In this document: positions 3,301 to 61,504 of the stretch, piece after piece
Numbering within the stretch: the first letter of the stretch is position 1
Layout of the letters: every line of letters starts with the position of its first letter
Assembly: GCF_026210795.1 (NCBI RefSeq)
Contig: NC_089432.1
Span: 4,588,001 to 4,652,000, forward strand
Direction: 5' to 3'
Length of the DNA stretch: 64,000 bases
DNA from: Rhizophagus irregularis
Lineage: Eukaryota; Glomeromycota; Glomeromycetes; Glomerales; Glomeraceae
Program-made: the position numbers and the translations under genes
The notes under the pieces: generated by a model
What the model was told of the DNA's origin: nothing
Seen by the model: only the letters and a program-made list of their open reading frames with translations
Database searches by the model: none

Positions 3301-3548
3301 TAGAGTTCCGATCCTATTCTTAAAGAGTCATCCGGATTCAATCCGGATCTTGACAGCCCATCCGGATTATAATCCGGTTCAACGGATTCATCCTTTATTT
3401 AGGATCCATCCGGATTAATCCCATCCGATTTTAAGGATTCATCCTTAATTTTGGATCTATCCGGATTTATCCTAATCCGAATTTTAATGGTTGGGGACTT
3501 GTTAATACATATGGTTTATGAGAAAATTTTCGAAATGGCGAAAAACTG

Positions 3549-3590
<42 letters not shown>

Positions 3591-3699
3591 CCAGATTGGC
3601 ATCCTAGGATTACCATCCGGATTCACTAACGGATCCATCCGCCTAAAAATGTAGGATGCGGATATCCGAATTCAATCCGGATTACGGATCAGAACACTA
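3301..3699. mobile_element. hAT-like MITE nested in the preceding element
   Basis: 399 bp bounded by TAGAGTTCCGATCC on the left and, in reverse complement, TAGTGTTCTGATCC on the right. A perfect 8-bp target duplication CCTAAAAT sits at 3293-3300 and 3700-3707. The TAGNG terminus plus 8-bp duplication is the hAT signature. The interior is built of many ATCCGGATT-type palindromes and contains a TA microsatellite. No coding capacity. Confidence 0.75.
3551..3588. repeat. (TA)n microsatellite
   Basis: About 18 uninterrupted TA units inside the hAT-like MITE. Confidence 0.95.
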
Positions 3700-4186
3700 C
3701 CTAAAATTTCCCAATTCTATATCATTAAAACAATGAATTAATTTTCTAAATTCCTCGAAGCTTCTTTATTAATAATAATTTTATTTCTAAATTTTCATTC
3801 TCTTTTGTATTGTCATTTTCAGGATTTGTAATTATTATACCTATAATTTCTTTATCTGAAAATAACTGAATACTATTAGTATTTTATAACATGATTTTGT
3901 AAATTTAATTCCTTATACAAATAATTTCATTGTTGTCATTCAGTCATCAACAATGAGGTGAAGCATCAACTCCAATTTGTTGTTTAAAAGTGAATCGTGA
4001 ACGATGTATCTAATGATTTACGTGGTATATAGTAAAATTATTAAAAAGTTCACTATATCTGATATATAATATCGAGATTTTATTAGTAAGTTTACTATAA
4101 TGAGTAAAATTAATATAAGGTGAACTGGGAAAATAAAAAAAGTTTATTATAACTATAACGAGCTTCGCTGTAACGAACTTTGACTG

Positions 4187-6035
4187 TGATTAGTGAAAAT
4201 AACATCAGGTTTTACGGTCATAAAACAAATTATGATAAATATAAAAGTCATAAAATTAAAGAAGGACTGTCAAAATATTTAAACCACTCAGTGTATAAAA
4301 ATCAAAGTGCGAAACAAGAATTAACAAGAAATTTAAAATTATAATTTGAAATCAAATAGAATAAATTGTTATTAGATGAGTTGACGGTAAAGTGATGTAA
4401 TTTAAGGTTGATAATAATCTTGATTGAACAATTTCATTTTGATAAATATTCATAAGTTTACGACAAAATAGTAAATACATATGTGAACGAAATTTCAAAA
4501 ATTAAAAATGTCCTTCAAGCATTAACAATTTATAACATGTGATTTAATAGAATGTTTCGAAATTAATTCAGTTTTTTTGTCCTAATGAAACAATATAAAG
4601 AAAATTGTAATTGTACTACTTTGATATATGAAGACAATGACCTTACAGAAAAAATATTAATAGATACATTAGCCACGAAAATATTAAAATAGGATAGGTC
4701 CAGCCAAAAAAAAATTACTATTGGCTATACGCAATTGTTTCAGGGCCGGAACTATGATAGTGTCAGCCAGTTACTAAAACAAGAAATAATATTCTGGCCA
4801 ACATAAAAAATTTGGTTATGTTTTAGATTACCGTATATAAATAATTTGAATTGTGTAATATGCAAATCCGTGTTGATTACTAATAAAAATATTTTAAATT
4901 ATTTTTTAGTTTCTGGTAATTGAAGTTTTGCTAATATTAACTGTTAATAAGTAATAGACAATTAAACTTATTAAGTTAATAAATTGTAAAATTTTTAAAA
5001 ACAATATCGCTCTTCTTTTTACGATTAGTAATTTTTTTTATTTTTATTTTTTTTTAACCGTAATCAAGATTTTTTTTTTTGTAACAATAGATCCTTTCTT
5101 TCGTTTAGTAATTTTTTTATTTTTTTATTTTTTTTTTGCAATCAGAATTTTTTTCATTTAGTAATTTTTTTTTTATTAAACAATTTATTTTTTTTAACGA
5201 TAGATCATTTAGTAATTTTTTTAATTTTTTTTATCATTTTCTTTTAATAGATCATTTAGTAACTGTTTTTTATTTTCTTAATAGGTCATTTAGTTATTTT
5301 ATTATTTTTTTTTTAAAAATTTTTTTAACAACAAGTCAGATTTTTTTTTCATTAAAATATTAATTAGTAATAGTTACTTCCCTTACTTTTTTTGCTTCCT
5401 GGTAACTGGCGTCATTCTAATACTATTAAATAATAGTTCTATCGATTCTTTTAGTAATAACAATAGGCTTTGGTGATAAGAATATTGTAACAATAGATTT
5501 GATAATGGAAATTTTTTTTTGACATAAATTTTTTTTAAGTAGATTACTATGATATAATCTCTGTAATAATACATTCGTATGATGTTATTCTTGGTGATGA
5601 GAAATTTTTTTTTTTTGTAACAATTAATTATTCAGGATTGATAGTGATGAGTCTGTAAACATATAAATAAACCATAAATTCTATAATACTGCAACATTTG
5701 TTTAATATTATAATATTTGTATTAAGTTATTGTTTAATCATATTGTAAATATACCTCACATTATTGTATTGTAAATATTGTAAATATAAATTACTGTATG
5801 TTCAGTATTATACAAAAATTAAATTGTTAGTCTAATATTAAATACAAATCTACATAACTACTTCAGTTTTTTTTTAAATTTTTCTTAACGACCTCTCGTC
5901 ATTTTAAGAAGAAAGACATATGTTGATGATATGATTCTTGATATGTTGTTAAATCATTTGCCATGGCTTGTCGTCGGTTGAGTTTTTTAACGCTCTCGTC
6001 CCATGATATGCTGCTTTACGTTTGTATTTGTTTTC
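4187..6035. other. Intergenic AT-rich stretch with T-rich tract
   Basis: 4693-4805 resembles the internal part of the MITE at 8934-9145: both have AGGTCCAG, TCAGGGCCGGAA and a GCCAG/GCCAT motif in the same order, so it is a decayed relative. 4815-4880 resembles the repeat also seen near 18.78, 48.26 and 49.18 kb. About 4990-5640 is a T-rich low-complexity tract in which the phrases TTTAGTAATTTTTT and GTAACAATAGAT recur. Just upstream of 6036, about 5910-6010 reads on the minus strand as further coding-like sequence (see the 6036-6905 entry). No independent gene is seen. Confidence 0.5.
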
Positions 6036-6905
6036 TTATTCGATTTGTTTGATTAGATCTGCTTTACGTTCTTGCTGATTAATGGCAGCTTTCGCTGCAG
6101 ATTTTACTTTTTTTTCAAGATATTTGAACCAACCAGTAGAACTGGGAGCGTAATATATTGCATCTTCGGGTGAGTAAATAGGTTGTGATGGAATGTAAGG
6201 ACGAAGACGGTTTGGTACAAAAATACTCAACTGTGTGAATCGGTGAAGAAGATCCGGTCTCATATTCTCATTAGGATTAAAGACAATAGCAATTATCTCA
6301 GATGTAGAAGCAGGTGTAGTGGTAGAAGCCTCAGGTGTAGCTATATTGAATGCGTTTACGCGCCTGTATGCTAAAAGAAAAAATAGGAACCAGGTATTGA
6401 TAATCCTGAGCATCCGGTAACTAGTCTTTTTGGAATATTTCAGATGTTTAATGGGTTTATCTATATATTGTGATTCAAGGAAAAGGAAACGATGCATCTT
6501 CGCCATGATTAATTTATCTTCAAGAGTATCAGGTGCGTTAGGGTTCCCCGAGTTTAAAAATTCTTTTACACTGGCGTTGGAATCTTTGGTATTGTTTGCG
6601 TCGAGTACGTGCATTATTACTATAAATATGTTTAAAATTGATAAATTTCTTCCTATACATAAACCGGTTGCCATGAGTGAATACATTTTAATGACCATTC
6701 GCTTGATATTTGACACTATATTCCACGCCCAAGCGTCGCGAATAAATTCGTTTTTCAGTATGTGAGCGCCAAGTATTGAACAATTTGTTTGCATGAAAAA
6801 TCTTGTTGTTCGGATGTGATTATGTAGTCGAAGTAACTTTGATATCTTTAAATATACGATACTTGAAAAAATGTTTTTGATGTTTAACGCAAGCACGTCT
6901 ATCAT
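6036..6905 (-). CDS. Unassigned reading frame; possible small secreted protein
   Basis: I do not recognise this protein. The open frame is 289 codons and less AT-rich than its surroundings, which supports coding. Two models fit. The full frame would have hydrophobic segments near residues 82-100 and 168-180. Alternatively, translation starts at the internal Met 165 (nt 6413), giving 125 residues that begin with a textbook signal peptide: MLRIINTW, then a FLFFLLA core, then VNA as a cleavage site before FNIATP. The mature part would be about 104 residues with a basic helical tail (FKYLEKKVKSAAKAA). The stop at 6036 is followed on the minus strand by about 100 nt of further coherent coding sequence in other frames (near 5910-6010), so a frameshift or unseen intron is possible and the C-terminus is uncertain. 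Confidence 0.45.
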   Translation of the reverse strand: MIDVLALNIKNIFSSIVYLKISKLLRLHNHIRTTRFFMQTNCSILGAHILKNEFIRDAWAWNIVSNIKRMVIKMYSLMATGLCIGRNLSILNIFIVIMHVLDANNTKDSNASVKEFLNSGNPNAPDTLEDKLIMAKMHRFLFLESQYIDKPIKHLKYSKKTSYRMLRIINTWFLFFLLAYRRVNAFNIATPEASTTTPASTSEIIAIVFNPNENMRPDLLHRFTQLSIFVPNRLRPYIPSQPIYSPEDAIYYAPSSTGWFKYLEKKVKSAAKAAINQQERKADLIKQIE

Positions 6906-9145: not shown

Positions 9146-9880
9146 CAATCACTTCTTTTCATTTCCATTACTTCTTTTCGTCTCTCATCACTCCTTTTTA
9201 TCTTTCATCATTCCTCTTTGTCTTCCATCACTTCTTTTGTCTTCCATCACTTTTTTTCGTCTCTCATCACTTTTTTTCGTCTCCCATCACTTCTTTTCGT
9301 CTCCAATTACTTCTTTTGTCTTCTATCACTTTTTTTCGTCTCCCATCAATCCTTTTCGTCTCCCATCACTCCTCTTCATCCCTCATCACTCCATTTTGTC
9401 TCTAATCACTCCTATTTGTCTCCTATCACTCCTCTTTGTCATCCATTACTCCTTTCCATCACCCATCACTCCTCTTCGTCTCCCATCACTCCTCTTCGTC
9501 TTCCATCACTTCTTTTCGTCACCTATCACTTCTTTTCGTCACCCATCACTCCTATTCGTCTCCCATCACTCCTTTTCACTTCTCTTCGTCTACAATCACT
9601 CCTTTTAGTCTTCCATAACCCCTCTTCATCTTCCCATCACTCCTCTTCATCTTCCATCACTTCTTTTCGTCACCCATCACTCCTATTCGTCACCCATCAC
9701 TCCTTTTCACTTCTCTTCGTCTACAATCACTCCTTTTAGTCTCCCATAACCCCTCTTCATCTTCCCATCACTCCTTTTCGTCTTCCATCACTCCTCTTCA
9801 TCTTCCCATCACTCCTCTTCATCTTCTTATCACTCCTCTTCGTCTCCCATCACTCTTTTTCATCATCCATCATGTCCTAT
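9146..9880 (+). repeat. CT-rich minisatellite, CATCACT units
   Basis: Dozens of tandem units of roughly 19-21 bp of the type TCCCATCACTCCTCTTCGTC with many substitutions. The plus strand is almost free of G-rich words, so the tract is strongly strand-asymmetric. All three plus-strand frames are open over long stretches only because of the base composition, so the Ser/Phe/Leu frames here are not called as genes. Confidence 0.9.
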
Positions 9881-15537: not shown

Positions 15538-16880
15538 CCTTCTCAGCAAATTCAAAGTTCCAAAATAACTAAACAAAATCCAAGAACGAATAAAATGACA
15601 AAACCAAGTACTTCAAAACTAGAACATTTGGCCCAAAACCTTTAGCTCCAAAACCTTTAACACAATTAGTTCTAAATCCTGTACCTATTCCTCCACAAAA
15701 CCAAATGTCCTCAGGCTTTAAAATGAGTTATAGAACGGATACTTTTACACTAAACTTTCAATATCCAGAAAATTAAAACAATGAAACTAACAAAGAATTT
15801 GAATATCCTTTACATAAAAATAGTGGAATTGATAATTCATTTCATGAAAAACTATATCAGTTGACATTTTGGACACGGAAACTTAAAGTTTTAATGAGAA
15901 AGATTCAACAGTTAGTTCAAAACCTTTAGCTCCAAAACCTTTAACACAATTAGTTCTAAATCCTGTACCTATTCCTCCACAAAACCAAATGTCCTCAGGC
16001 TTTAAAATGAGTTATAGAACGGATACTTTTACACTAAACTTTCAATATCCAGAAAATTAAAACAATGAAACTAACAAAGAATTTGAATATCCTTTACATA
16101 AAAATAGTGGAATTGATAATTCATTTCATGAAAAACTATATCAGTTGACATTTTGGACACGGAAACTTAAAGTTTTAATGAGAAAGATTCAACAGTTAGT
16201 TCATATTAACGTCATTATAGTGATGCATAATTAATTGCTTTTAGAATATTAAAGAAAATGAAAAAACGTATGATGGAAGAGAAAAAATGTTGAATCTCAA
16301 GTTGTAAAAAGATGGAGTGATGAAGAAATTGACATTTTATCGTCATATTTAGAAGACAATTACGAAAAACTTCAGCAAGGTAAAAATCCATTATGTACAA
16401 TTTAATTTCTACTGAAGTTATTAAGACAAAATCAAGCAAAAGTATTAAAGGCAGGATTAAACGTTTATTGGAACATATGAAAAAGTGAAAAAACAAAATG
16501 ATAAAATAGGTCTAAAAGAATTGGTATGACAAAATGAATAGAATTACAGGTATCATAAAGCATTAATCCTTCTTATATTTCAAATGTCTCTACAAGATAT
16601 ATCAGTGATAGTGATAAAGTAGAAAAAGGAAATTAAGTCAAAAGAGATACAAGAAAGTAAAAAAATTCTATCAAATCTTTGGTTAATGTTATGAATAATA
16701 TTATTCAAGCAAAGCTCAGAATATCTGAACAAAAACTTCATTAGATCGCGAGAAAATGAAATGGAACGTGAAAGAATGAATAAAGAGTTTTAATTGCAAG
16801 TAGAAAATTTTGAAGTTGAAAAGAAAAAATGGTAATTTGTAAAAGAGTAATCATTAAAAAAATAGAATTACAGTTATCAC
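15538..16880 (+). pseudogene. SANT/Myb-like protein of a PIF/Harbinger element (decayed)
   Basis: Starts MPSQQIQSSK and soon frameshifts into a Pro-rich stretch (PKPLAPKPLTQL). A 284-bp internal tandem duplication follows. At about 16300-16400 there is a SANT/Myb-like helix (RWSDEEIDILSSYLEDNYEK), then a long charged coiled-coil region to about 16850 (SLVNVMNNIIQAKLRISEQK and beyond). Stops and frameshifts occur throughout. PIF/Harbinger transposons carry two genes, a DDE transposase and a Myb/SANT-like DNA-binding partner that is needed for transposition. The transposase remnant lies just downstream on the opposite strand, which supports the assignment. Confidence 0.7.
15634..16201 (+). repeat. 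Perfect 284-bp tandem duplication
   Basis: 15634-15917 and 15918-16201 read as identical, base for base, in a sequence otherwise full of decay. The duplication must therefore be recent, or an assembly artefact. Confidence 0.9.
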
Positions 16881-28000: not shown

Positions 28001-29283
28001 TTTAGAAATTCCTTTAAATAATAAGGAATATTAGAAAGATTTTGGTTATGATAGATAACAATAATGAAAAATCTTTAATAAATTTAATAAAACATCAATA
28101 ACATCAAAGGAGTATATACAAGGATCAATTTACAGACTAAATAGTAAATAAACCGATCATTTTTATGCTCGATTAGTAAAGTTATTGAAAAATGTGGGAT
28201 TTTAGAAATAGTTAAGAAAGAAAAATTATAAATTATGGTCTAACAAAATCAGTAAAAAAAAAAAATTTTTTATGCAAAATTTCACACAAAAATGGACAAG
28301 AAAGAATTCTATATTAGAAATAAAATTTTGAATATATTTATTATATTACATATATGATCAATTCTCAAAACTAATAGGATCGATGTGAGAATGGGATAGC
28401 GAATTCTCAACATTGGAAATCATTATCCTAACTACTAATTAGTCGATAAATCGATTTTTAAAAAAAAAATTAGCAATACAACTATAATTATATAAACAAT
28501 CCCACAATTGCTATCTAAAAATAAAGATAAATATTCTTTACTTTGAATAAATTTTTTAGTGTGAATTTAAATTTTTAAAAAAATTTGTTTTGTTTACATA
28601 AAATCCTTTATGTTTTCTATTTTTATGTTGATCCCATATTTTGCAATCAGACCCTTCTAAAATTCAATTTAGTAAAGGCTAGATAATAGGCAATAAGTTT
28701 AAGCACAGCGCAGTACTATAATGAGCCATAATTATAAATGAGCCATAATTATGAACCATAATTATAAATCAGCATCAATAATATAAACTGACCAAAGAGA
28801 AATTTGTTTACATGCATGGCATAAAATGGAGATTAATATATAAAGCATTTTCACGTTATTTAAAGAAAAAATAATGTTAACTTACAGCTGACTGTTTAAA
28901 ATTATCATTCTCACTTACCATATCACCCTTAACTGCTTAGTTTGCATTTTTAATCGATGAAGCTTTGAATGTAATCAAGGCAACGAATACAATACAATAA
29001 CATAATTTCCTATCCTTGCTCCCGTCACGTTATTTATATTTATACATTAAATTTGGGAGTGAGAAATCACCCAAATGAGTAACAAATTTAATTCCATTTT
29101 TACATATTTAGCGATAGTATGCTTTTGGATGATAAATTTCTGACGATCATCTTCCATATTTATTCACTTTTTCGCTCAATATGGAATTTGTTATGCGATC
29201 TTCATACATTTTTTCATAGTTTCAGAAATGCACAACGTGAACTTTAATTGTTCAATTTTATATAGCTATGTTTTATAGTTATA
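25085..29283. other. 4.2-kb AT-rich desert
   Basis: No frame with coding character, no TIR pair and no recognised domain were found on either strand. A short tandem of ATGAGCCATAATTATAA units lies at about 28719-28770. A slightly GC-richer patch at 27640-27700 (TTCGCGCAGTAGGCGCAGCG) is unexplained. Confidence 0.5.
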
Positions 29284-29338
29284 TAGCAATAGCAATTGCT
29301 ATTGCTATTGCTATTGCTATTGCTATTGCTATTGCTAT
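29284..29338. repeat. (ATTGCT)n microsatellite with inverted start
   Basis: Eight or so ATTGCT units preceded by the inverse AGCAATAGCAAT and followed by ATAGCTATAGCTATAG, so the whole block can fold back. Confidence 0.95.
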
Positions 29339-29939
29339 ATAGCTATAGCTATAGACACTAAATAGCAAAAAATATTGCTTTTACCAAATTGCTTCTTTTG
29401 ATATCATTAGAATAAAATTACAAATTAAGCATTCCTGTGCCACTTTCATTGCATGTTTAATTTAGTCATCAAATAATAGGATTTCACATCAAATTTGATT
29501 TAGATGATCTTCAAAGAAATAAAGCTACGAATATTTTTTTTTCTAAGCTAAAAAAAAAACCCCAAAATATTGTGTTACATCTTTTTTTTTTTGCAGGAAA
29601 AAAAAATTGGTTGGATAAAAAAAATATTGCGTCATAAATAGATCTTGGATTTTTTTAAAAAAAATCATTTTTCTTTCTTTTTTTAGAAAGAAACATCATT
29701 TTTTTTGATTATCATTATCCAATTACAATACTTATCATTATTTAACTCCCTTTTTTTTCATTTTACTAAAAAAAAAAAAAATTTTTTCTTGGAAGGAAAC
29801 ATTTTTATTAATATTTCCTTTTATTTTGTTATGTTCAAACAAGTTTGGATAGGTGGAAAGGTGAATTTTGTAATAGTTTACTTTGTTACGAAACTTAGTA
29901 TTTTTTATTAGAGAAATTTCTAGAAAAAATTAATTTTTT

Positions 29940-32900
29940 AATTTTTTTATTTTTTTGTAGGGTATTTGACTCTAATAAAAATTATATAAACTTTTTAAAA
30001 ATAAAAACATTAACGTTTTTTTCTTTTTTTGTAAAGAAATCAACTGGATATTGGAATCTCAATAAGTTTCAAAATTTGAAACTTTTAAAAAAAAATGATG
30101 TTTTTCTTTATTTTTGTAGAGAAATTGGTTCCGATTTGGATACCAGATCTCCAATAAGTAAGTTTCGATTTGAAACTTTTAAAAAAAAATATTTTTTTTT
30201 TTTAATTTTTTTTTCTTCTATTTTGTAGATTTTGGCTCCGCGTTGGATATATGGGTGAGTTTTGAGGTGAAAGCTTCAAAAAAAAATTATTTTTAATTGT
30301 TTTGGCTTCCAGTTCCTAAGTATTGAATATAATCAATATATAGATGATAACTATGAAATTTTTTTAAAAAATTATTTAATTTTTTTTTCTTCTACTTTGT
30401 AGGTTTCAGCTTCTAGTTCTTGGACGTTAGATGGGTAAGTTTTGACTTCGGAACTTAAAAAAATTTTTTTTAATTTACTTATATTTTTTATTTATTTTGT
30501 AGGTTCAGCTTTTAGTTTTTGAACTTTGAGTATATAGGTGAGTTTTAGAACGAAAGAATTGAACCTTTTTTTTAAAAAAAAAATTTTTTTTTAATTTTTT
30601 TTTCCCTCTATTTTCTCTATTTTGTAGATCTTGGCTTTTGGTTCTTGGGTGTTAAGTATATAGATGAGTTTCAGAGTGAAAGAATCGAAGCTTTTTTTTT
30701 AAAAAAAAAATCAAATTTTTTTAAATTTTTTTCTTCTATTTTTGGCTTTTGGTTCTTAGGTGTTGAATATATAGGTGAGTTTCGGAGTGAAAGAGATGAA
30801 ACTTTTTTAAAATAAATTATTTATTTTGATTTTTTTTTTCTTCTATTTTGTAGGTTTGACTTTCGATTCTTGAGTGTTGAATATATAGGTGAGTTTCAGA
30901 GTGAAAGAGACGAAATTATTTTAAAATAAATTATTTATTTTGATTGTTTTTTTCTTCTATTTTGTAGGTTTGGCTTTCGGTTCTTGGGTGTTGAATATAT
31001 AGGTGAGTTTCGAAGCAAAAGAGCCAAAACTTTTTTAAAATAAATTATTTATTTTGATTTTTTTTTTCTTCTATTTTGTAGGTTCGGCTTTCAGTTCCTG
31101 GTATTGAATATATAGGTGAGTTTCAGAGTGAAAAAGCCGAAACTTTTTTTAAAATAAATTATTTATTTTGATTTTTTTTCTTCTATTTTGTAGATTTTGG
31201 CTATCAGTTCTCGGGCGTTTGATATTGGTGAGTTTTGAAGCGAAACCTTCAAAACTTTTTAAAAATAAATTATTTATTTTGATTTTTTTTTTCTTCTATT
31301 TTGTAGATTTCGGCTATCAGTTCTTGGGCGTTTGATATTGGTGAGTTTTGAAGCGAAACCTTCAAAACTTTTTAAAAATAAATTATTTATTTTAATTTTT
31401 TTTTTCTTCTATTTTGTAGGTTCAGCTTTCGGTTCTTGGTGTTAAATATATAGGTGAGTTTCAGAGTGAAAGAGCCGAAACTTTTTTTAAAATAAATTAT
31501 TTATTTTGATTTTTTTTTCTTCTATTTTGTAGATTTCGGCTATCAGTTTTTGGGCGTTTGATATTGGTGAGTTTTGAAGCGAAACCTTTGAAATTTTTTT
31601 AAAAAAAAATTTTTTAATTTACTTATTTTTTTTTTATTTTGTAGGTTTCGACTTTCGGTTCTTGGACGTTTGTTATTGGTGAGTTTCGAAGTGAAAAAGC
31701 CAAAACTTTTTTTAAAATAAATTAATTTATTTTAATTTTTTTTTCTTCTATTTTGTAGATTTCAGCTTTTGGTTCTTGGATGTTTGATATATAGGTGAGT
31801 TTTGGAGCGAAAGAGCCAAAATTTTTATTAAAATAAATTAATTTTTAATTTTTTTTTTCTTCTATTTTGTAGGTTTCGACTTTTGGTTCTTGGATGTTTG
31901 TTATTGGTGAGTTTCAAAGCGAAAAAGCCAAAACTTTTTTTAAAATAAATTAATTTTTTTTAATTTTTTTTTTCTTCTATTTTGTAGATTTCAGCTTTTG
32001 GTTCCTGGTGTTAAATATATAGGTGAGTTTCAGAACGAAAGAGCCAAAACTTTTTTTAAAATAAATTATTTATTTTGATTTTTTTTTCTTCTATTTTGTA
32101 GATTTCGGCTGGTGTTTGATATAGGTGAGTTTTGAAGCGAAACCTTTGAAATTTTTTAAAAAAAAAATTTTTTTTAATTTACTTATTTTTTTTTTATTTT
32201 GTAGGTTTCGACTTTCAGTTCTTGGACGTTTGTTATTGGTGAGTTTCGAAGCGAAAAAGCCAAAACTTTTTTTAAAATAAATTAATTTATTTTAATTTTT
32301 TTTTTCTTCTATTTTGTAGATTTCAGCTTTCGGTTCTTGGATGTTTGATATATAGGTGAGTTTTGAAGCGAAAGAGCCAAAATTTTTATTAAAATAAATT
32401 AATTTTAATTTTTTTTTTCTTCTATTTTGTAGGTTTCAGCTTTCGGTTCTTGGAAGTTTGATATATAAGTAAGTTTCAAAGCGAACGAGCTGAAACTTTT
32501 TTTAAAATAAATTATTTTAATTTTTTTTTCTTCTATTTTGTAGATTTCGGCTTTCAGTGAGTTTCAAAGCAAAAACTTTGAAAGTTTTTTTAAAAAAGTT
32601 TTTTAATTTACTTACTTTTTTTTATTTTGTAGATTTCAGCTTTTGGTTTAGATATATAGGTGAGTATCGGAATGAAAGAGCTGAAACTTTTTTTAAAATA
32701 AATTATTTATTTAATTTTTTTTTTCTTCTATTTTTGTAGATTTCAGCTTTCAGTTCTTATGCGTTTGATTTAAAGGTAAATTTCAAAGTTTTGTTTTCTT
32801 TTCAAAACTTTAAAAATTTTTTTTAATTTTATTTATTTGTTTTTTTATTTTGTAGTTATCGGTTGTAATATCCTTGGGCTTTGGATAGGTGAGTATTGAA

Positions 32901-33480
32901 GTTTTGCTTTCTTTTTGAAACTTTAAAAAAGATTTTTAATTTTATTTTATTTTATTTTATTTTATAGGTAATGGCTGCGACATCTCATTGGGCTTTGGAT
33001 CGGTAAGTTTCATTTTCTTTTCAAAACTTTTTTAATAAAAATTATTTTTTAAAATTTTCTTTTATTCTGTAGGTTTCGACTGCAATATCTCCTTAAACTT
33101 TGGGTCAGTGAGTTTCAAAGTTTCGTTTTTTTCAAACTTTCAGAAAAATTTATAATTTTATTTATTTTTTTTATTTTGTAGGTATCGGTTGTGATATCTT
33201 TGGGCATTGAAATGGTAAGTTTTGAAGCAAATACTTCAAAACTTCTTAATAAAAATTGTTTTTTAATTTGACTCTTTCTTTATTTTGTAGGTTTCAGCTG
33301 CGATATCTTTGGATCTGTGAGATTCAAAGAATGCTCCAGAATTTTCTTTTTAAGGAAATTGACTCCGATTTGGATACCATAAGTAAGTTTTGATTCAAAA
33401 CTTTAAAAAAAACTTTATTTTTATTATTTTTAATGTTACTTTTTCTTTTTGTAGGGAAATCGGCACCTGAATCCCAATAG
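29940..33480 (+). repeat. Tandem array of intron-exon-intron-like units
   Basis: About 28 head-to-tail units, period about 112-113 bp in the regular middle part (for example between 31081, 31193, 31306, 31419 and 31532). Each unit has a T-tract ending TTCTATTTTGTAG (a model 3' splice site), a 23-36 nt core of the type TTCGGCTTTCGGTTCTTGG plus a GATATATAG ending, and then GTGAGTTT (a model 5' splice site). A spacer with AGCCGAAACTTTTTT and AAAATAAATTATTTATTTT completes the unit. The core start (GTTTCGGCTTTC) is complementary to the downstream spacer (GAAAGAGCCGAAAC), so each unit can form a hairpin. Core lengths vary and do not keep a frame, so no protein is called. Orientation is the same as the kinase C pseudogene downstream. 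Confidence 0.85.
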
Positions 33481-33540
33481 TAGATCTTTTATAAATAATG
33501 CACGATTTTTATAGGACTTTAGCTTCTATGGAATTTCTTA

Positions 33541-33600
33541 TCTTTATTTGTTGTCTGTTGGAATCGAACCAACTGGAACCAATATCCAAACCATTAACAA
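33541..33600 (-). other. tRNA-like T-arm / pol III B-box relic
   Basis: On the minus strand GTTGGTTCGATTCCAAC forms a perfect 5-bp T-arm with a B-box GGTTCGATTCC. It is flanked by GTTGTTA and AGACAAC, which pair over 5-6 bp like an acceptor stem. The whole is only about 52 nt and lacks an anticodon arm, so it is not a functional tRNA; a SINE head or chance remains possible. Confidence 0.25.
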
Positions 33601-33844
33601 CATGTAAATTTTTAGTAAAGGTGGAATTTTAATTATTAGCATACAGTAAATTATTATTTTTTTTTTGTAAATACTTTTAATAAATGCTTTTAATAAATAT
33701 GATAATGTTAGTTGTCACTTATCATTAAATAATTTGAATCAAAAAAAAAAAAAAATTAAATTTTTTTTGTTAGAGCATTTTATAAACGCCAGTAAAATGC
33801 AATTTGATTTGATATTGACATTTCAATACACAAAATTAAACAAT

Positions 33845-33879
33845 GGGGGACGAAGTCCCCCGCAAAACGCAATTTCTAG
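33845..33879 (+). mobile_element. Helitron-like 3' terminus with perfect hairpin
   Basis: GGGGGACGAAGTCCCCC is a perfect 7-bp stem with a GAA loop, followed 14 nt later by CTAG and T. It lies between the two tandem arrays, suggesting that the upstream array is carried inside or next to a Helitron. No 5' end was found. Confidence 0.6.
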
Positions 33880-33899
33880 TTTAATATATAATATCTACG

Positions 33900-35640
33900 T
33901 ATAATTTTAACTAACTCAATTCTTCATTTAAAAATTATTTCATAATATAGGATGTAAGTAATTTATTTAATTCTGTTATTTCATTTTTATATAAATTTAC
34001 ATATAATTTAAACTAACTAAATCTTATTTAAAAAATTGTTAATGATATAGGGGGTAAGTTAGTTATTTAATTCCATTATTATATATAAATAAATTTAAAC
34101 TAACTAAATTCTTTATTTAAAAATTATTTAATAATATAGAGCGTAAGTTATTTATTTGATTCTATTATTACAGATTTATATGATATTTAAATATAACTTA
34201 AACTCACAAATTCTTTATTGGAAAAATTATTTAATAATATAGGGGGTAGTTATTTATTATTTATTTAATTCTATTATTACATATTTATATAATACATATT
34301 TACATATAACTTAAACTAACTAAAATTCTTTATTCTAAAAAAAACTTTTAATAATAGTATATAGACTATAGAGTGTAAGTTATTTATTTAATTCTATTAT
34401 ATATTTATATAATATTTGCATAACAATTTAAGCTATCTAAATTTGTTATTTAAAAAATTATTTTTGCAATTTCTTTCAGTTGGTAAGTTATAAGTTATTT
34501 ATTCAATTCTATTATTACATATTTGTATAATATTTACATATAACTTAACTAATTCAATTCTGTATATTAAATAACATAGAACATAAGTTATTTAATTCAG
34601 TCTTTATTTATATATTTATATAATATTTATATATAATTTAACCAAACTAAATTAATTAATTATTTAATAATAGGAGGTAAAGCTATCTATTTAAATTTAC
34701 TATTATATAAATTATGTAGTAATTTAAACTAATTAAATTCTTTATTCAAAAAATTATTTAATAATATAGAGAGTAAGTTATTTATTTAGTTATATATTTA
34801 CATGATATTTACAATAATTTACATATAATTTGAACTAAATAAATTCTTTATTTAACAGTTAGTAAGTTATAAGTTATTTATTCAGAATCTATTATTATTA
34901 TTACATATTTAAATAGCTAAATTCTTTATTTGAATAATTATTTAATCATTTATTTAATTCTATTATTACATATTTACATAACATCTACATTAATTTAAAC
35001 TAACTTCTTTATTTAAAAATTATTTAATAATATACTAGAGAGTAAGTTATTATTTAATTCTGTCATTACATATCTATATGCATAATTTAAATAACTAAAT
35101 TCTTTATTTAAAAAATTATTTTGTATTCACTTTTAGTTGGTAAGTTATAAAGTTATCTATTTTAATTCAATATTTACATATAATTTAATTTAAACTAACT
35201 AAATTCTTTATTTAAAATATTATTTAATAATATAGGGCGTAAGTTATTTAATTAATTCTATTATATAATATTTACATATAATTTAAAACTAATTAAAACC
35301 TTTATTAAATAATTATTTAATAATATAGGACGTAAGTTATTTAATTCTATTATTACATATTTATATAATATTTACATATAATTTAACTAACTAAATTCTT
35401 TATGTATAAAATTATTAATGATATAGGTCGTAAGTTATTTATTTATTGCACATTATAATATTTGTATATGATTTGAACTAACTAAATTCTTTATTTAAAA
35501 AATTATTTTGTAATTTCTTTTAGTTGGTAAGTTATAAGTTATTTATTTAATTCTATTATTATCACATATTTATATAATATTTACATATAATTTAAATTAA
35601 TTAAATTCTTTATTTAAAAAATTTATTTGTTGTTTTATCA
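33900..35640 (+). repeat. Second tandem array, back-to-back intron-like units
   Basis: About 16 units of roughly 95-110 bp: GTAAGTTATTTATTT, then TTCTATTATTACATATTT, AAACTAACTAAATTC, TATTTAAAAAATTATTTAAT and AATATAG followed by GGGGTAAGTT. Each holds a donor-like GTAAGT, a branch-point-like CTAAC and an acceptor-like TATAG, with only 2-4 nt between acceptor and next donor. No coding content. Confidence 0.85.
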
Positions 35641-35708
35641 TCATATATTTTATATAATATTTATTTGCTAACTGAATTTTTTCATTTGAAAAATATCTAT
35701 TACATTTT

Positions 35709-35907
35709 CCCTATAAAAAATTTTTATCCGAATATTTCCATTATTTCTCTGTGTCTTCCGTAAAAATTCCGTGAAAATGATACATTCACGGATATCCGTG
35801 TTAGCGAGATGAAAATTTCCATGATTTAAGGCTATAAATTCCATGAAAATGATACATTCACGGAAAAAACATGGAAAGATAAAACACGGATCAGATTTTT
35901 TACAGGG
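35709..35907. mobile_element. MITE with about 21-bp TIRs
   Basis: 199 bp bounded by CCCTATAAAAAATTTTTATC and, in reverse complement, CCCTGTAAAAAATCTGATCC. Inside are two copies of GAAAATGATACATTCACGG, each able to fold with the preceding CCGTGAA or CCATGAA. No clear target duplication was found. No coding capacity. Confidence 0.65.
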
Positions 35908-36077: not shown

Positions 36078-37264
36078 AAGAAGGAGTGGAAATGCAATTC
36101 TGGATGAATTTATCTTTAAAAAGGATTTAAAATGGATTTCTTATAATCAATTTATTAATGTTGAATATCTTAATCAAGGAGGATTTGGTATTATATACAA
36201 AGCTATTTGGTTAAATGATTATAAGGATGAAGAAGTAATTCTTAAATGTCATGATAAGTTAAATGAAAATTTAAATGAATTTTTACATGAAGTATGATAT
36301 TAACATATTAGTATATTATTTTTTTTTTAATAATTATTTATACTGATTGATTATTATTTTTTTTTTTATAGTGGAAATACCATGAAAGATGTTTAGATTC
36401 AAATAATATCATTAATTTTTATAAATTTACAAAAAATCCAGATAATTTAAAATATATGGTAGTAATGGATTATGCAAACAAAGGTAATTTAAGAGAAAAT
36501 TTAGCAAGAATAATCAAAAATAATTGGAAACAAAAATTATATATGTTGTATGAGATTATTTCTGGACTTAATGAGATACATCAGCAAGATCTTATTCATT
36601 GTGATTTTCATGATGGTAATATTTTAAGTCATAATGATAGGAATGAGGATAAAATTTATATTAGTGATTTGGGATTATGTCAACCTGCAAAATCATTTTT
36701 AAAAGAGTACGTTATTTTTGGTGTTATACCATTTATGGCACCTGAAATTTTAAGAGGCAAAGCTTATACTCCTGCTAGTGATATATATAGTTTTTCTATG
36801 ATTATGTGAGAACTTACAGGATACCACCATTTAATAACAGGGCACATGATATTCAACTTAGTTTAAGTATTTGTAAGGGTGAACGTCCTGAAATTATTGA
36901 AAATACTCCACAATGTTATGTAGATTTGATGAAAAAATGTTGGAATGAAGATCCATTAAAAAGGCCATCATCTGAAAAAGTCTTAGATATTATTAAGAAA
37001 TGGATTTATCTTCCTTATGAAATGAAATTTGAAGATATTGATGAGAACTTAAAATGCAGTGTTATGGAATTTATAAATACACCAATTAAGCATAACACTC
37101 TTGTTACTGAATCTCATTCGCAAGCATGTTATACAAGTCGCTTACTTGATTTTAGTAGTAAAAACTTAAATGAAATTCTTGAAAATGAAGATTTACAAGC
37201 TAGTATGAAAGTGAATGAAATGCTAGTAAGCGAAGATTTAAATAATTGTATAATTAAGATTTGA
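36078..37264 (+). pseudogene. Kinase C, TKL-like kinase pseudogene
   Basis: Exon 36078-36291, intron 36292-36371, exon from 36372. Reads SGNAILDEFI, Gly loop NQGGFGIIYKA, VILK lysine, NEFLHEWKYHERCLDSNNII, then HCDFHDGN in the catalytic loop (HCD rather than HRD), DLG, and APEILRGK. At 36807 the Trp codon of the SMIMW motif has become TGA, and one base is lost just after, so the C-lobe (PPFNNRAHD, CWNEDPLKRPS) continues in another frame to 37264. There is no start codon: the first exon begins at a 3' splice site and the upstream exons have been replaced by the repeat arrays and a MITE. It belongs to a different subfamily from kinases A and B but shares their 3' block. Two breaks and loss of the 5' end make it non-functional. 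Confidence 0.85.
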
Positions 37265-58619: not shown

Positions 58620-61504
58620 ATGATAAATTTTAGAAACGCACGTAGTGAAATTAAAGAACGTGATGAAGATGAGCCACAGCAAGTAGGTATAACTTCTGAT
58701 ATTAAAGCCCTTCAAATTTTTAGATTGCGTTTTCAAGAATGACCTATACTGTGTCCTTGCCGCACTGTATTCAAGTATGCCATTTGAATAAGTTGTTTGT
58801 TCTTGCCATATTGTGTGTTAAGAATAACATTTCTCGCCACATTGTATTCAAGTATGCCATTTGAATAAGTTGTTTGTTCTTGCCATATTGTGTGTTAAGA
58901 ATAACATTTCTCGCCACATTGTATTCAAGTATGCCATTTGAATAAGTTGTTTGTTCTTGCCATATTGTGTGTTAAGAATGACATTTCTTGCCACATTGTA
59001 TTCAAGTATGCCATTTGAATAAGTTGTTTGTTCTTGCCATATTGTGTGAGATCACCTGCAAAGGTGATTTCAAGAATGATATATTCTTGTCACATGGTAT
59101 GAGGTCACCTGCAAGGGTGACTTCAAGTTCAAACCATTTGGTATTCTTGCTATATCGTGTGAAACATGTGAGAATGCCGTTCTTGCCATGGTATGAGGTC
59201 ACCTGCAAGGGTGACTTCAAGTTCAAACCATTTGGTATTCTTGCTATATCGTGTGAAACATGTGAGAATGCCGTTCTTGCCATGGTATGAGGTCACCTGC
59301 AAGGGTGACTTCAAGTTCAAACCATTTGGTATTCTTGCTATATCGTGTGAAACATGTGAGAATGCCGTTCTTGCCATGGTATGAGGCCGCCTGCAAGGGT
59401 GACTTCAAGTTCAAACCATTTGGTATTCTTGCTATATCGTGTGAGACATGTGAGAATGCCGTTCTTGCCACATGGTATGAGGCCGCCTGCAAGGGTGACT
59501 TCAAGTTCAAACCATTTGGTATTCTTGCTATATCGTGTAAGAGAATGCCATTCTTGTCACATGATATGATGTCACCTGCAAGGGTGATTCATAAAATCAA
59601 TCTAATGAAGTTTCTTTAAGTACTTTTCTTATTGTAAAGAAACTCGGGCTTTGTTATATATATACTGATATTACTCTTAATGCATATTATCATTAACTAT
59701 CCTTTCTATTAATAGTTTCCATTATTACCAGAATATGAATCTGAGGATGAAATGATAATGATTGAAACAAATGGTGAATCTGAAGATGATAGAGAGGTAA
59801 TTATTAAACTTTATAAGTGTCAAAAGGTGAAGTTTGATGAGGTGATGTACAATATAACCCTAAAAATATATGAAAGTCATAATAAAATTCAGATATTCGA
59901 AAATTTTTAAATTCAGCATGTTTGATTATCTAATTTTATATGATTTACAAATGAATATTTGAATATTAGCTAATTTTTAATGGAAATTCTAGTAGCATCA
60001 ATTGAGCCTCACTAATTCCTTAACTCCATTCAGACTCAAGATTTACCGGTTGAAGAAGAAGATCTTTATGAGCCATCTGTAATTCGTATTAATGAAGACA
60101 GTTCAGAAGAAACTTTGAACTGGAATACGATAAAGGAAAAAGTAGACACATATCGAAAGCAATTGAAAAAGGGAAAATATGCTGTCGAGTAAGCTTTATT
60201 TTTGTATAATTATTGTATTTATAGCATTTTCTAACTTTTATATAACTTCATTTTTAGTACGCTATATTATTTTTTAATTGACTACTCTGGTTTTCATGGT
60301 CCAACATCAAATCTATTATCTGGCTATTTTCCAAAAATGTTGAATGCACTTCCAAAAAATATGCGGTTTTGTGTTTCAACACTTTCTGAAGAAGAAACAA
60401 AATTTTTCGATCTACTTTTGAGGGTAATCATTATTTTTTTATCGCTTGAAAACAATAAGTCAATAAAACATAATTTTTACAGAGTTTTTTATTTGTAGAC
60501 TGAAGATATTGCTGATATTAAAACGGTAACAGAAGAAGAGAAAATTCTTAAAAGGCTTGCCAATAATATGTGAGTAAAAAAAATATGAAAGATATTTATT
60601 TTCCTTTTGAATAAATCATAACTAATGATGCATTTTTTCCAGTTTTGACGCTATTACAATGCATGGGAGGGATGATTTATTTGAAGTTGAACATATGTTT
60701 CGCAATATCGTCCCTCTACTTGATGCAACAATAAGGAAGGACAACCATTATCGGGTAAAATAGTAAGTAATGCATGTGTCAATTAACTTATTATATATCA
60801 TGAGAATTATATTACATTAACATTTATTGCCCAGCGGCGAAACATTACTGGAAGCAACCGCAAATCGCCGAAATAAAGGAACTGATCCCAATGATCGTGC
60901 GCGAATTGGATATAAAGTTGATGTGATATTTGAATACCGAATCAGCTGGGCCCCCGTTATTGGATGTATGGAGGTGTCTGGTGGTCTCCCACGGTGTTCA
61001 CGTTCCAAGGAATGGGATGACACCCGAAAATTAGGCTTGGAACTCCGAGACTTATGGCTGGATGCTATGGAAAAATTAGCAGGTGCAAATGCAAATGAAA
61101 TAGTCTGGTGGGGTCTTACTGTAGTTGGTAAGTACTGCAATTTACAATTCATGGTATGCTACCTGTAAATAAATAAATGCTAAATCAAAAATGGAAAACT
61201 AGGCCTAAAGATTAGAGTATATGCACTTGCTGCCGCCGGTGGACTATTCCATTTAGTCCTAATGTATGAATGTCTTCTCCCAAGTTCTCCGGTAGATCTT
61301 GTTAATCTAGAACTTGCATATCTTGTATTGAAAGAATACAAGAAAAAACTAGATGAAACAAGAGACATTCTATGTAAACTCAATCAGGAAAGAATAAAAC
61401 TGATTACTAGGGGAAAAAGAGGATCAGACGAATTGCTCAGAGAAGTTGGAAAAAAGCCAGAAATTATAAATACGCCGGAACCAAGAAAGCGAAGTAGACA
61501 GTAA
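58620..61504 (+). CDS. Eight-exon gene, uncharacterised fungal protein
   Basis: Exons 58620-58682, 59716-59796, 60034-60188, 60258-60423, 60499-60569, 60643-60762, 60835-61127, 61203-61504; all junctions are GT-AG and keep frame, giving 416 residues. The N-terminal 90 or so residues are acidic (ERDEDEPQQ, EYESEDEM, LPVEEEDLYEP). The middle part has DYSGFHGPTSNLLSGYFPKM. The C-terminal half has NHYRVKYGETLLEATANRRN, YKVDVIFEYR, then IGCMEVSGGLPRCSRSKEWD and RVYALAAAGGLFHLVLMYEC, and a basic tail EPRKRSRQ that could be a nuclear signal. The arrangement DVIF then CMEVSGG resembles a group of fungal proteins with a restriction-endonuclease-like core, but the catalytic E-x-K is E-V-S here, so nuclease activity is doubtful. 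Intron 1 (58683-59715) is unusually long and repeat-filled. Confidence 0.8.
58737..59047 (+). repeat. 77-bp tandem repeat in intron 1
   Basis: Four units; TGAATAAGTTGTTTGTTCTT starts at 58785, 58862, 58939 and 59016, exactly 77 bp apart. Units contain TTCTCGCCACATTGTATTC. Confidence 0.95.
59048..59600 (+). repeat. 94-bp tandem repeat in intron 1
   Basis: Units start GAGGTCACC at 59101, 59195, 59289, 59383 and 59479, with partial copies at 59048 and 59568. Each has the inverted pair GTCACC-TGCAAG-GGTGAC. GCCGCC replaces GTCACC in two units. Both strands are open over several units by chance; no protein is called. Confidence 0.95.

Follow-up and report, generated by a model that had tools for sequence, protein, structure and literature searches.

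Two neighbouring arrays with splice-site motifs in Rhizophagus irregularis: a probable transposon satellite and a candidate array of codon-sized microexons in a kinase gene

Two tandem arrays whose units carry splice-site motifs lie next to each other in a 64,000-nt stretch of the genome of the arbuscular mycorrhizal fungus Rhizophagus irregularis (G000:C4:4588001-4652000, in an assembly of 146.7 Mb and 32 contigs; this whole stretch is called the window). An earlier note had reported the first of them, at 29.9-33.5 kb, as a satellite of exon-like cores flanked by splice signals. With a probability of about 0.83, we read the two arrays as unrelated: the reported satellite appears to be passive transposon cargo, and the second array, at 33.9-35.6 kb, appears to be the 3′ portion of an array of microexons belonging to a kinase gene. 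The second array lies outside the coordinates of the satellite and abuts the 3′ end (CTAG) of the transposon that bears it. Its features are as follows.

33,880-35,660, + strand: second array, putative codon-sized (3-nt) exons with introns of roughly 70-125 nt
33,951-33,953, + strand: first triplet exon of this array, GAT
35,524-35,526, + strand: last scored triplet exon, TTG
35,680-35,905, no strand assigned: insert-like stretch with repeated pieces, recognised by eye; none of the paralogs read showed it at this position, and the terminal units are damaged here
36,078-37,264, + strand: kinase exons of the gene, as open reading frames (PF00069, E 1.1e-23 for 36,372-36,806)

Sel1-like and kinase-like open reading frames of the window were recognised by eye and are presumably what they resemble; Pfam was run for the kinase at 36.4 kb only.

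Each unit of the second array consisted of TAG or CAG, three bases, and GTAAGT or a similar donor, with a CTAAC box mostly preceding them. In the window, profile matches extended from 33,896 to 35,623, and all 15 scored units were 3-nt units (one without GT); one more 3-nt unit was found in a gap. A genome search with this array gave at least 232 matches (best 26 of 327 candidates scored), in approximately 25 places by our own grouping of the listed rows. The spacing between AG and GT was 3 nt in 330 of the 333 units of six loci, with AG kept in 333 and GT in 331; the profile seeds had been selected for AG and GTAAGT exactly 3 nt apart, and their three middle columns were masked. Three held-out loci (L049-L051), fetched later as a test of spacing and frame, showed 3 nt in 70 of 70 units (AG, 69/70; GT, 70/70). 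Together, the nine loci had exactly 3 nt in 400 of 403 scored units. This constancy did not follow from rigidity of the repeat, because unit length varied from 71 to 129 bp (steps of up to 135 bp counted, longer ones being outside the period range).

On a tree made without the triplets (298 of 335 profile matches; the spacing count used 333), the triplet columns showed 19, 16 and 30 changes per 100 sequences and the AG and GT columns 0, 0, 0.3 and 0, with a mean of 2.05 and a maximum of 5.7 for the other well-covered columns. Recombination between units could inflate the triplet rate, but not the invariance of AG and GT. Introns were alike within loci (0.885) and between loci (0.866), and pairs of units with introns at least 97% identical had the same triplet in 1062 of 3705 cases. 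Genome-wide, the pattern TATAG-N(0-12)-GTAAGTTA had 2,360 matches compared with 257 for a reversed control, and the spacing was exactly 3 nt in 85 of the first 100 listed, which by extrapolation would give roughly two thousand such exons.

Units of this kind could also form an AT-rich minisatellite within one intron of the kinase gene, with TATAG-NNN-GTAAG serving as a site for protein binding or recombination whose 3-bp spacer is free to vary. The triplets are indeed the only hypervariable positions, as a spacer between half-sites would be, and the shared CTAAC box and the tandem repetition agree with a minisatellite; what such a spacer leaves unexplained is the order of the triplets. When the triplets of the six loci were joined in order and read in the frame in which the intron follows the first base of each codon, 1 stop was found where 19.1 were expected, and none of 5000 order shuffles had fewer than 10. 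That stop was in L046 and disappeared once units of odd length were kept in place. The held-out loci had 0 stops in the same frame (2.5 expected, P = 0.037). Over all nine loci, 0 stops occurred at 388 junctions of neighbouring triplets (394 minus six that touch units of other length), whereas the null had a mean of 21.5 and a minimum of 11 in 2000 shuffles. Exactly TAA, TAG and TGA were avoided: after T, the pairs AA, AG and GA never occurred, whereas AT occurred 14 times and GG 23 times. Junctions that skipped 1, 2, 3, 4, 5, 6 or 7 units contained 24, 25, 22, 22, 16, 22 and 18 stops, respectively, as in shuffles. Because stops were avoided in order only and skips were at chance, the triplets are most simply read in order and in this phase, skipping not being the rule. 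A reading of each triplet as one codon (frame 0, with 1 stop in 330) was considered and rejected: frame 0 is poor in stops because few triplet types occur, and the frame that depends on order and fits the flanks is the one split after the first base. A spacer gives no reason for the avoidance of stops, nor for the phase match with both flanks in L044, L047 and L048, and we therefore regard the minisatellite as very improbable.

The phase match was seen by splicing in silico. In L048, one open frame ran from a 22-nt ATG exon through a second exon of 24 nt, 56 triplets and a 1-nt exon (A) into the kinase exon, with one 144-bp gap that contains no recognised unit. L047 was open from the ATG through 35 triplets (one of them from a gap) and the 1-nt exon into the kinase exon. 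In L044, an ATG exon (22 nt, GC donor assumed) and an array of 85 units, 84 of 3 nt and one of 6 nt, led in one frame into a coiled-coil exon; the other start phase gave 15 stops. The 1-nt exon, an A between AG and GTAAGT, preceded the kinase exon in all five kinase-linked paralogs read (L045-L049), and L045 fitted at its 3′ joint. Between this exon and the kinase exon, L045, L046 and L049 have a further site, a T between AG and GTAA, whose use would shift the frame; such a site might serve to switch the gene to non-productive mRNA. The in-order reading of L049, which has two gaps without a recognised unit, includes eight consecutive arginines, which come from GGA and GAA triplets.

Several observations weigh against a coding microexon array. 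The held-out stop test is modest when taken alone, and L045 and L046 were tested at the 3′ joint only. L046 (at the kinase joint) and L049 had one stop each as computed, since the profile missed the last triplet, and they fit only with an extra TTG or TTA triplet read by eye. Eight gaps of 144-428 bp contained no recognised unit, and units with poor splice signals may have been missed because of the 3-nt spacing of the seeds. The kinase label of the L045-L049 exons comes from their likeness to the exons of the window, and the spliced L048 piece, 148 amino acids long and with only the first of the kinase exons, had no Pfam match at E 0.01. A genome search yielded no intronless relative of the L044 array peptide, an empty result that is uninformative by the search's own limits. 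The window copy itself is damaged: no ATGGCTCA start was found on the + strand of the window, the array opens in mid-intron where it meets the 3′ end of the transposon, and its last units are disturbed; intact-looking copies are present at other loci.

As a putative array of codon-sized coding microexons, the second array is well supported by the spacing, the rates and the frame, and we infer that it is spliced and that the N-terminal segment that it encodes is used. An intron of approximately 70-125 nt would interrupt every codon between its first and second base, and the 3-nt exons would be joined in order. A 3-nt exon cannot be occupied by 3′ and 5′ splice factors together, so the introns (approximately 100 nt) would be recognised as introns and removed stepwise. 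The array may have grown by copying of units and subsequent selection on the codons, with introns homogenised by conversion where the codons allow it; insertion of an intron at every codon would be an alternative origin. Somewhat less firmly, we favour a broader reading in which a kinase/coiled-coil family of an arbuscular mycorrhizal fungus would have approximately 85 one-triplet exons in a row, a 1-nt exon closing the kinase genes, stepwise splicing without exon definition, a diversified N-terminus and approximately two thousand exons in all, and would be convergent with the NACHT-ANK genes of truffles.

The reported satellite and the element that bears it have the following features.

29,940-33,480, + strand: reported satellite, 29 scored units, each of TTTTGTAG, a core (mostly 32-36 nt) and GTRAGTTT with a hairpin (approximately 75-80 nt); the outermost units are of a related type
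29,110-33,879, + strand: Helitron-like element bearing the satellite, 4.8 kb; 5′ end TT followed by AGCGATAGTATGC, 3′ hairpin, then CTAG followed by TT
33,845-33,861, + strand: 3′-terminal hairpin GGGGGACGAAGTCCCCC, with CTAG after it at 33,876-33,879; similar ends occur downstream of Helitron_like_N matches

The array of AG-core-GT units described in the earlier note is real. Tandem Repeats Finder reported a period of 114 at 30,611-32,555, and 30 matches to the unit profile spanned 30,016-33,343 of the window (first and last both on the + strand); 29 of them were long enough to score. Both AG and GT flanked the core in 27 of these 29 units. Core length ranged from 13 to 38 nt (13 nt, 1 unit; 23 nt, 1; 26 nt, 2; 27 nt, 1; 32 nt, 1; 33 nt, 2; 34 nt, 9; 35 nt, 6; 36 nt, 5; 38 nt, 1) and was a multiple of three in 8 units and not in 21; the majority of spacers were 68-81 nt. 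The array is one among many in the genome: a search with 30,830-31,900 gave at least 77 matches on many contigs (best 40 of 164 candidates scored), and 20 loci were fetched from it, six close to the window (L009-L014) and 14 diverged (L015-L028). Pairing of each core with its own downstream spacer, which the earlier note had also described, was confirmed as a slight effect (−11.1 kcal/mol compared with −9.7 kcal/mol for shuffled spacers; own spacer better in 14 of 22 tested units). A hairpin immediately inside the donor folds more strongly (−5.8 compared with −2.5 kcal/mol, 20 of 22 units; −9.5 compared with −3.3 kcal/mol in the diverged group).

Judging from its copies, the satellite forms the tandemly repeated interior of a Helitron-like, non-autonomous-looking transposon. 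Likeness to the window began at approximately 29,078-29,108 and ended at approximately 33,870-33,897 in L009-L014. Flank reading of these copies and the window copy placed the start of the element at TTAGCGATAG and its end at CTAG, then TT; the 3′ hairpin was found in 7 of 7 copies and the CTAG end in 6 of 7 (one copy is without the last bases). The satellite array of L013 and L014 contains approximately 2.4 kb of sequence unlike that of the window, at locus positions approximately 4,040-6,430 and approximately 3,416-5,800 (reversed), respectively, nearly the same place in the array. The element was taken as non-autonomous because its 4.8 kb contained no listed open reading frame of at least 120 amino acids. 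Among the matches listed, 41 were to its 5′ end (best 40 of 58 candidates scored) and 12 to its 3′ end. Ends of its 3′ type occurred 51 times in the genome compared with 0 for the reversed-pattern control. Three of them lay 2.6 kb downstream of Helitron_like_N matches (C5:554825, C5:581739 and C9:154588, with open frames of 1372, 958 and 1372 amino acids, the second with one stop inside), a comparison made by the 3′ end alone, and a fourth lay 4.2 kb downstream of another Helitron_like_N match.

The 5′ terminus is a point against this assignment: the element starts with TTAGCG between flanks of T and TT, whereas textbook Helitrons start with TC and insert between A and T. Helentron-type termini differ from textbook Helitrons in this way. 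No target-site duplication beyond TT was seen in flanks read by eye, and empty sites were not searched. The same 5′ end occurred in L029-L033 with a different tandem repeat of 172 bp, and the satellite unit profile had no match in L029-L035 at E 0.01. Compared stretches of the 172-bp repeat were mostly 91-97% alike and had a TTTAG-AGC-GTAATA-like junction.

The diverged satellite was found in elements of another type. L015-L028 were mostly 67-85% alike in their best-matching stretches, with one pair at 96%. Of these 14 loci, 10 had a 3′ end of the GACCAGTG type, and both ends, CACTGGTC...GACCAGTG, were found in three, all three with a 3-bp duplication (TTA, ATA, CAT); the terminal inverted repeats were CACTGG..CCAGTG. 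Judged by termini and duplication, the carriers are CACTA-like (CMC) DNA transposons. Their 3′ end had 49 matches among those listed (best 40 of 171 candidates scored). In several of these loci a second core type (34 nt) precedes the core type of the window, and AG and GT were both kept in 154 of the 205 units. An exon-intron-like unit was probably acquired by transposable elements, or arose in them, and was then multiplied in tandem and spread to many loci.

Alternatively, the transposon might have in its satellite a functional non-coding RNA gene whose spliced exons of approximately 35 nt yield many isoforms, a splicing sponge or circular RNAs. The retention of splice signals in both the window and the diverged units agrees with such a gene. 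So do the donors, which matched GTAAGT at 5.2-5.4 of 6 bases compared with 4.4 in 16 host introns inferred in chaperonin genes, and the pyrimidine tracts, which were richer than in those introns; the satellite units had been preselected for AG and GT. Conservation was counted in 258 units kept from 414 found (L009-L014 were excluded as close copies); 229 had enough columns for the tree and 214 entered an arm-swap test. Splice dinucleotides changed 3.4 times per 100 sequences compared with 8.6 for exon columns, approximately 2.5-times slower. The donor G+1, at 7.6, changed like the slower exon Gs (6.9-8.8), and the columns that changed fastest, at 16-23 per 100 sequences, were mainly CpG, a pattern that silenced repeats would be expected to show. 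The changes in the hairpin were not convincingly compensatory. Own arms paired better than shuffled arms (9.18 of 10 compared with 8.99; maximum, 9.09 in 300), but not better than with the arm of the nearest neighbour from another locus (9.37), and covariation was rejected. One of ten hairpin pairs (columns 69-76) was above independence (0.77 compared with 0.66), an excess that subfamilies could cause.

Coding signals in the cores were equally weak. The reading of the core as FGFRFLGVEYIG, proposed in the earlier note, holds as one reading of a 36-nt core, but the chained cores of the window have no long frame: the longest open stretch was 41 codons, whereas order permutations averaged 65.8 and shuffles 78.3. 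The longest chained open stretch stayed within the best of 100 shuffles in all 21 loci. Two other candidate signals were rejected. Core length was a multiple of three in 97 of 205 diverged units, but in only 8 of 29 window units and 49 of 152 units of close copies; two consensus-like cores were open in all frames, but so were 79% and 22% of their respective shuffles. We consider a functional non-coding RNA gene quite unlikely.

A further explanation is a transposon that mimics an intron, in which splice signals would be kept in the active lineage since an insertion that is spliced out harms a gene less. The slower change of the splice dinucleotides and the presence of unit introns in two diverged unit types, carried by two transposon types, are consistent with it. 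However, cores of 34-36 nt would stay in the mRNA, most window cores would shift its frame by not being multiples of three, and the Helitron-like L029-L033 carry their 172-bp repeat, unmatched by the unit profile, instead. Intron mimicry is therefore doubtful.

Some satellite results stand against purely passive decay. The splice boxes are mildly protected, and two diverged unit types both keep AG..GT. Stop trinucleotides within cores numbered 247, below all 100 shuffles (275-326), and the longest frames of three diverged loci were near the shuffle maximum (L025, 132 of 133; L028, 113 of 121; L018, 103 of 136). Together, these results make selection in an active transposon lineage possible; the low stop count was not read as coding because chained frames stay within shuffles. 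Of the two origins that the earlier note had offered, signals amplified by accident or a microexon array, accident is the better supported for the satellite, since it is transposon-borne, its CpG columns are fastest, its cores have no frame beyond shuffles, its hairpin shows no convincing compensation and its G+1 changes like exon Gs; the microexon idea has good support in the neighbouring array at 33.9-35.6 kb. The satellite unit thus looks like a splicing-competent exon-intron unit turned transposon cargo, whose AG and GT, pyrimidine tract and hairpin would be inherited parts in decay, mildly conserved and with no sign of a protein. Splicing of satellite copies, if any, would not be under selection.

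Other repeats were present elsewhere in the window: a pyrimidine-rich 20-bp tandem array of approximately 37 copies at 9,148-9,872, with at least 120 amino acids open in several frames; a perfect tandem duplication of 284 bp at 15,634-16,203 (two copies, 100%); and adjacent satellites at 58,759-59,591, one of 77 bp × 3.8 (98% matches) and one of 94 bp × 5.4 (95%).

The satellite cautions that a transposon can passively bear splice signals that look perfect, and the second array offers, in the same genome, the contrast of how selection on splicing looks. Should RNA confirm the kinase arrays, codon-sized exons in arrays would occur in a second fungal lineage, and the arrays would put minimal exon size, strictly sequential splicing and array origins to an extreme natural test; N-termini of a kinase family in a major plant symbiont would then appear easy to mis-annotate. 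In the part of the literature searched, no title reported codon-sized exon arrays in this fungus, and the truffle genes were the one mention found.

Helitron-type elements with internal tandem repeats are known, and the element in the window resembles them in its terminal hairpin, CTRR-like end and internal tandem repeats and in the absence of a visible target duplication. It differs in that its repeat resembles an exon-intron unit, its 5′ end is not TC and its flanks are T/T rather than A/T. Introners, as described in part of PMC9860276, are many introns that are alike, as in the second array; they are scattered over unrelated genes, whereas the second array has a fixed 3-nt spacing within the array (arrays alone compared). 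The micro-exon genes of Schistosoma mansoni, according to passages of PMC10526429, have 10-20 exons, mostly of 15 bp, and introns of up to 5 kb. Like the second array, they are made up for the most part of very short exons whose lengths are usually divisible by three, and they are hard to annotate automatically; the L044 array differs in its approximately 85 exons in a row and in units of approximately 100 bp that are 87-89% alike. Single-nucleotide exons are mentioned for Arabidopsis APC11 and VPS55 (PMC8831610) and for Fusarium CYP621A (PMC12940212), and the 1-nt exon A of L045-L049 would likewise be needed for the kinase frame. The known cases, as these mentions give them, are isolated and supported by RNA, whereas those of R. 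irregularis are predicted from sequence and follow a long array of 3-nt exons. The closest likeness found is to the nank (NACHT-ANK) genes of the truffle Tuber melanosporum, for which multiple codon-sized, alternatively spliced microexons are briefly mentioned (Iotti et al. 2012, through PMC4986451 and PMC10197012). Compared through these brief mentions, the truffle genes belong to another phylum and gene family and are described as alternatively spliced, whereas the second array protects in-order joins; both nevertheless have multiple 3-bp exons in an expanded, putative recognition family of a mycorrhizal fungus.

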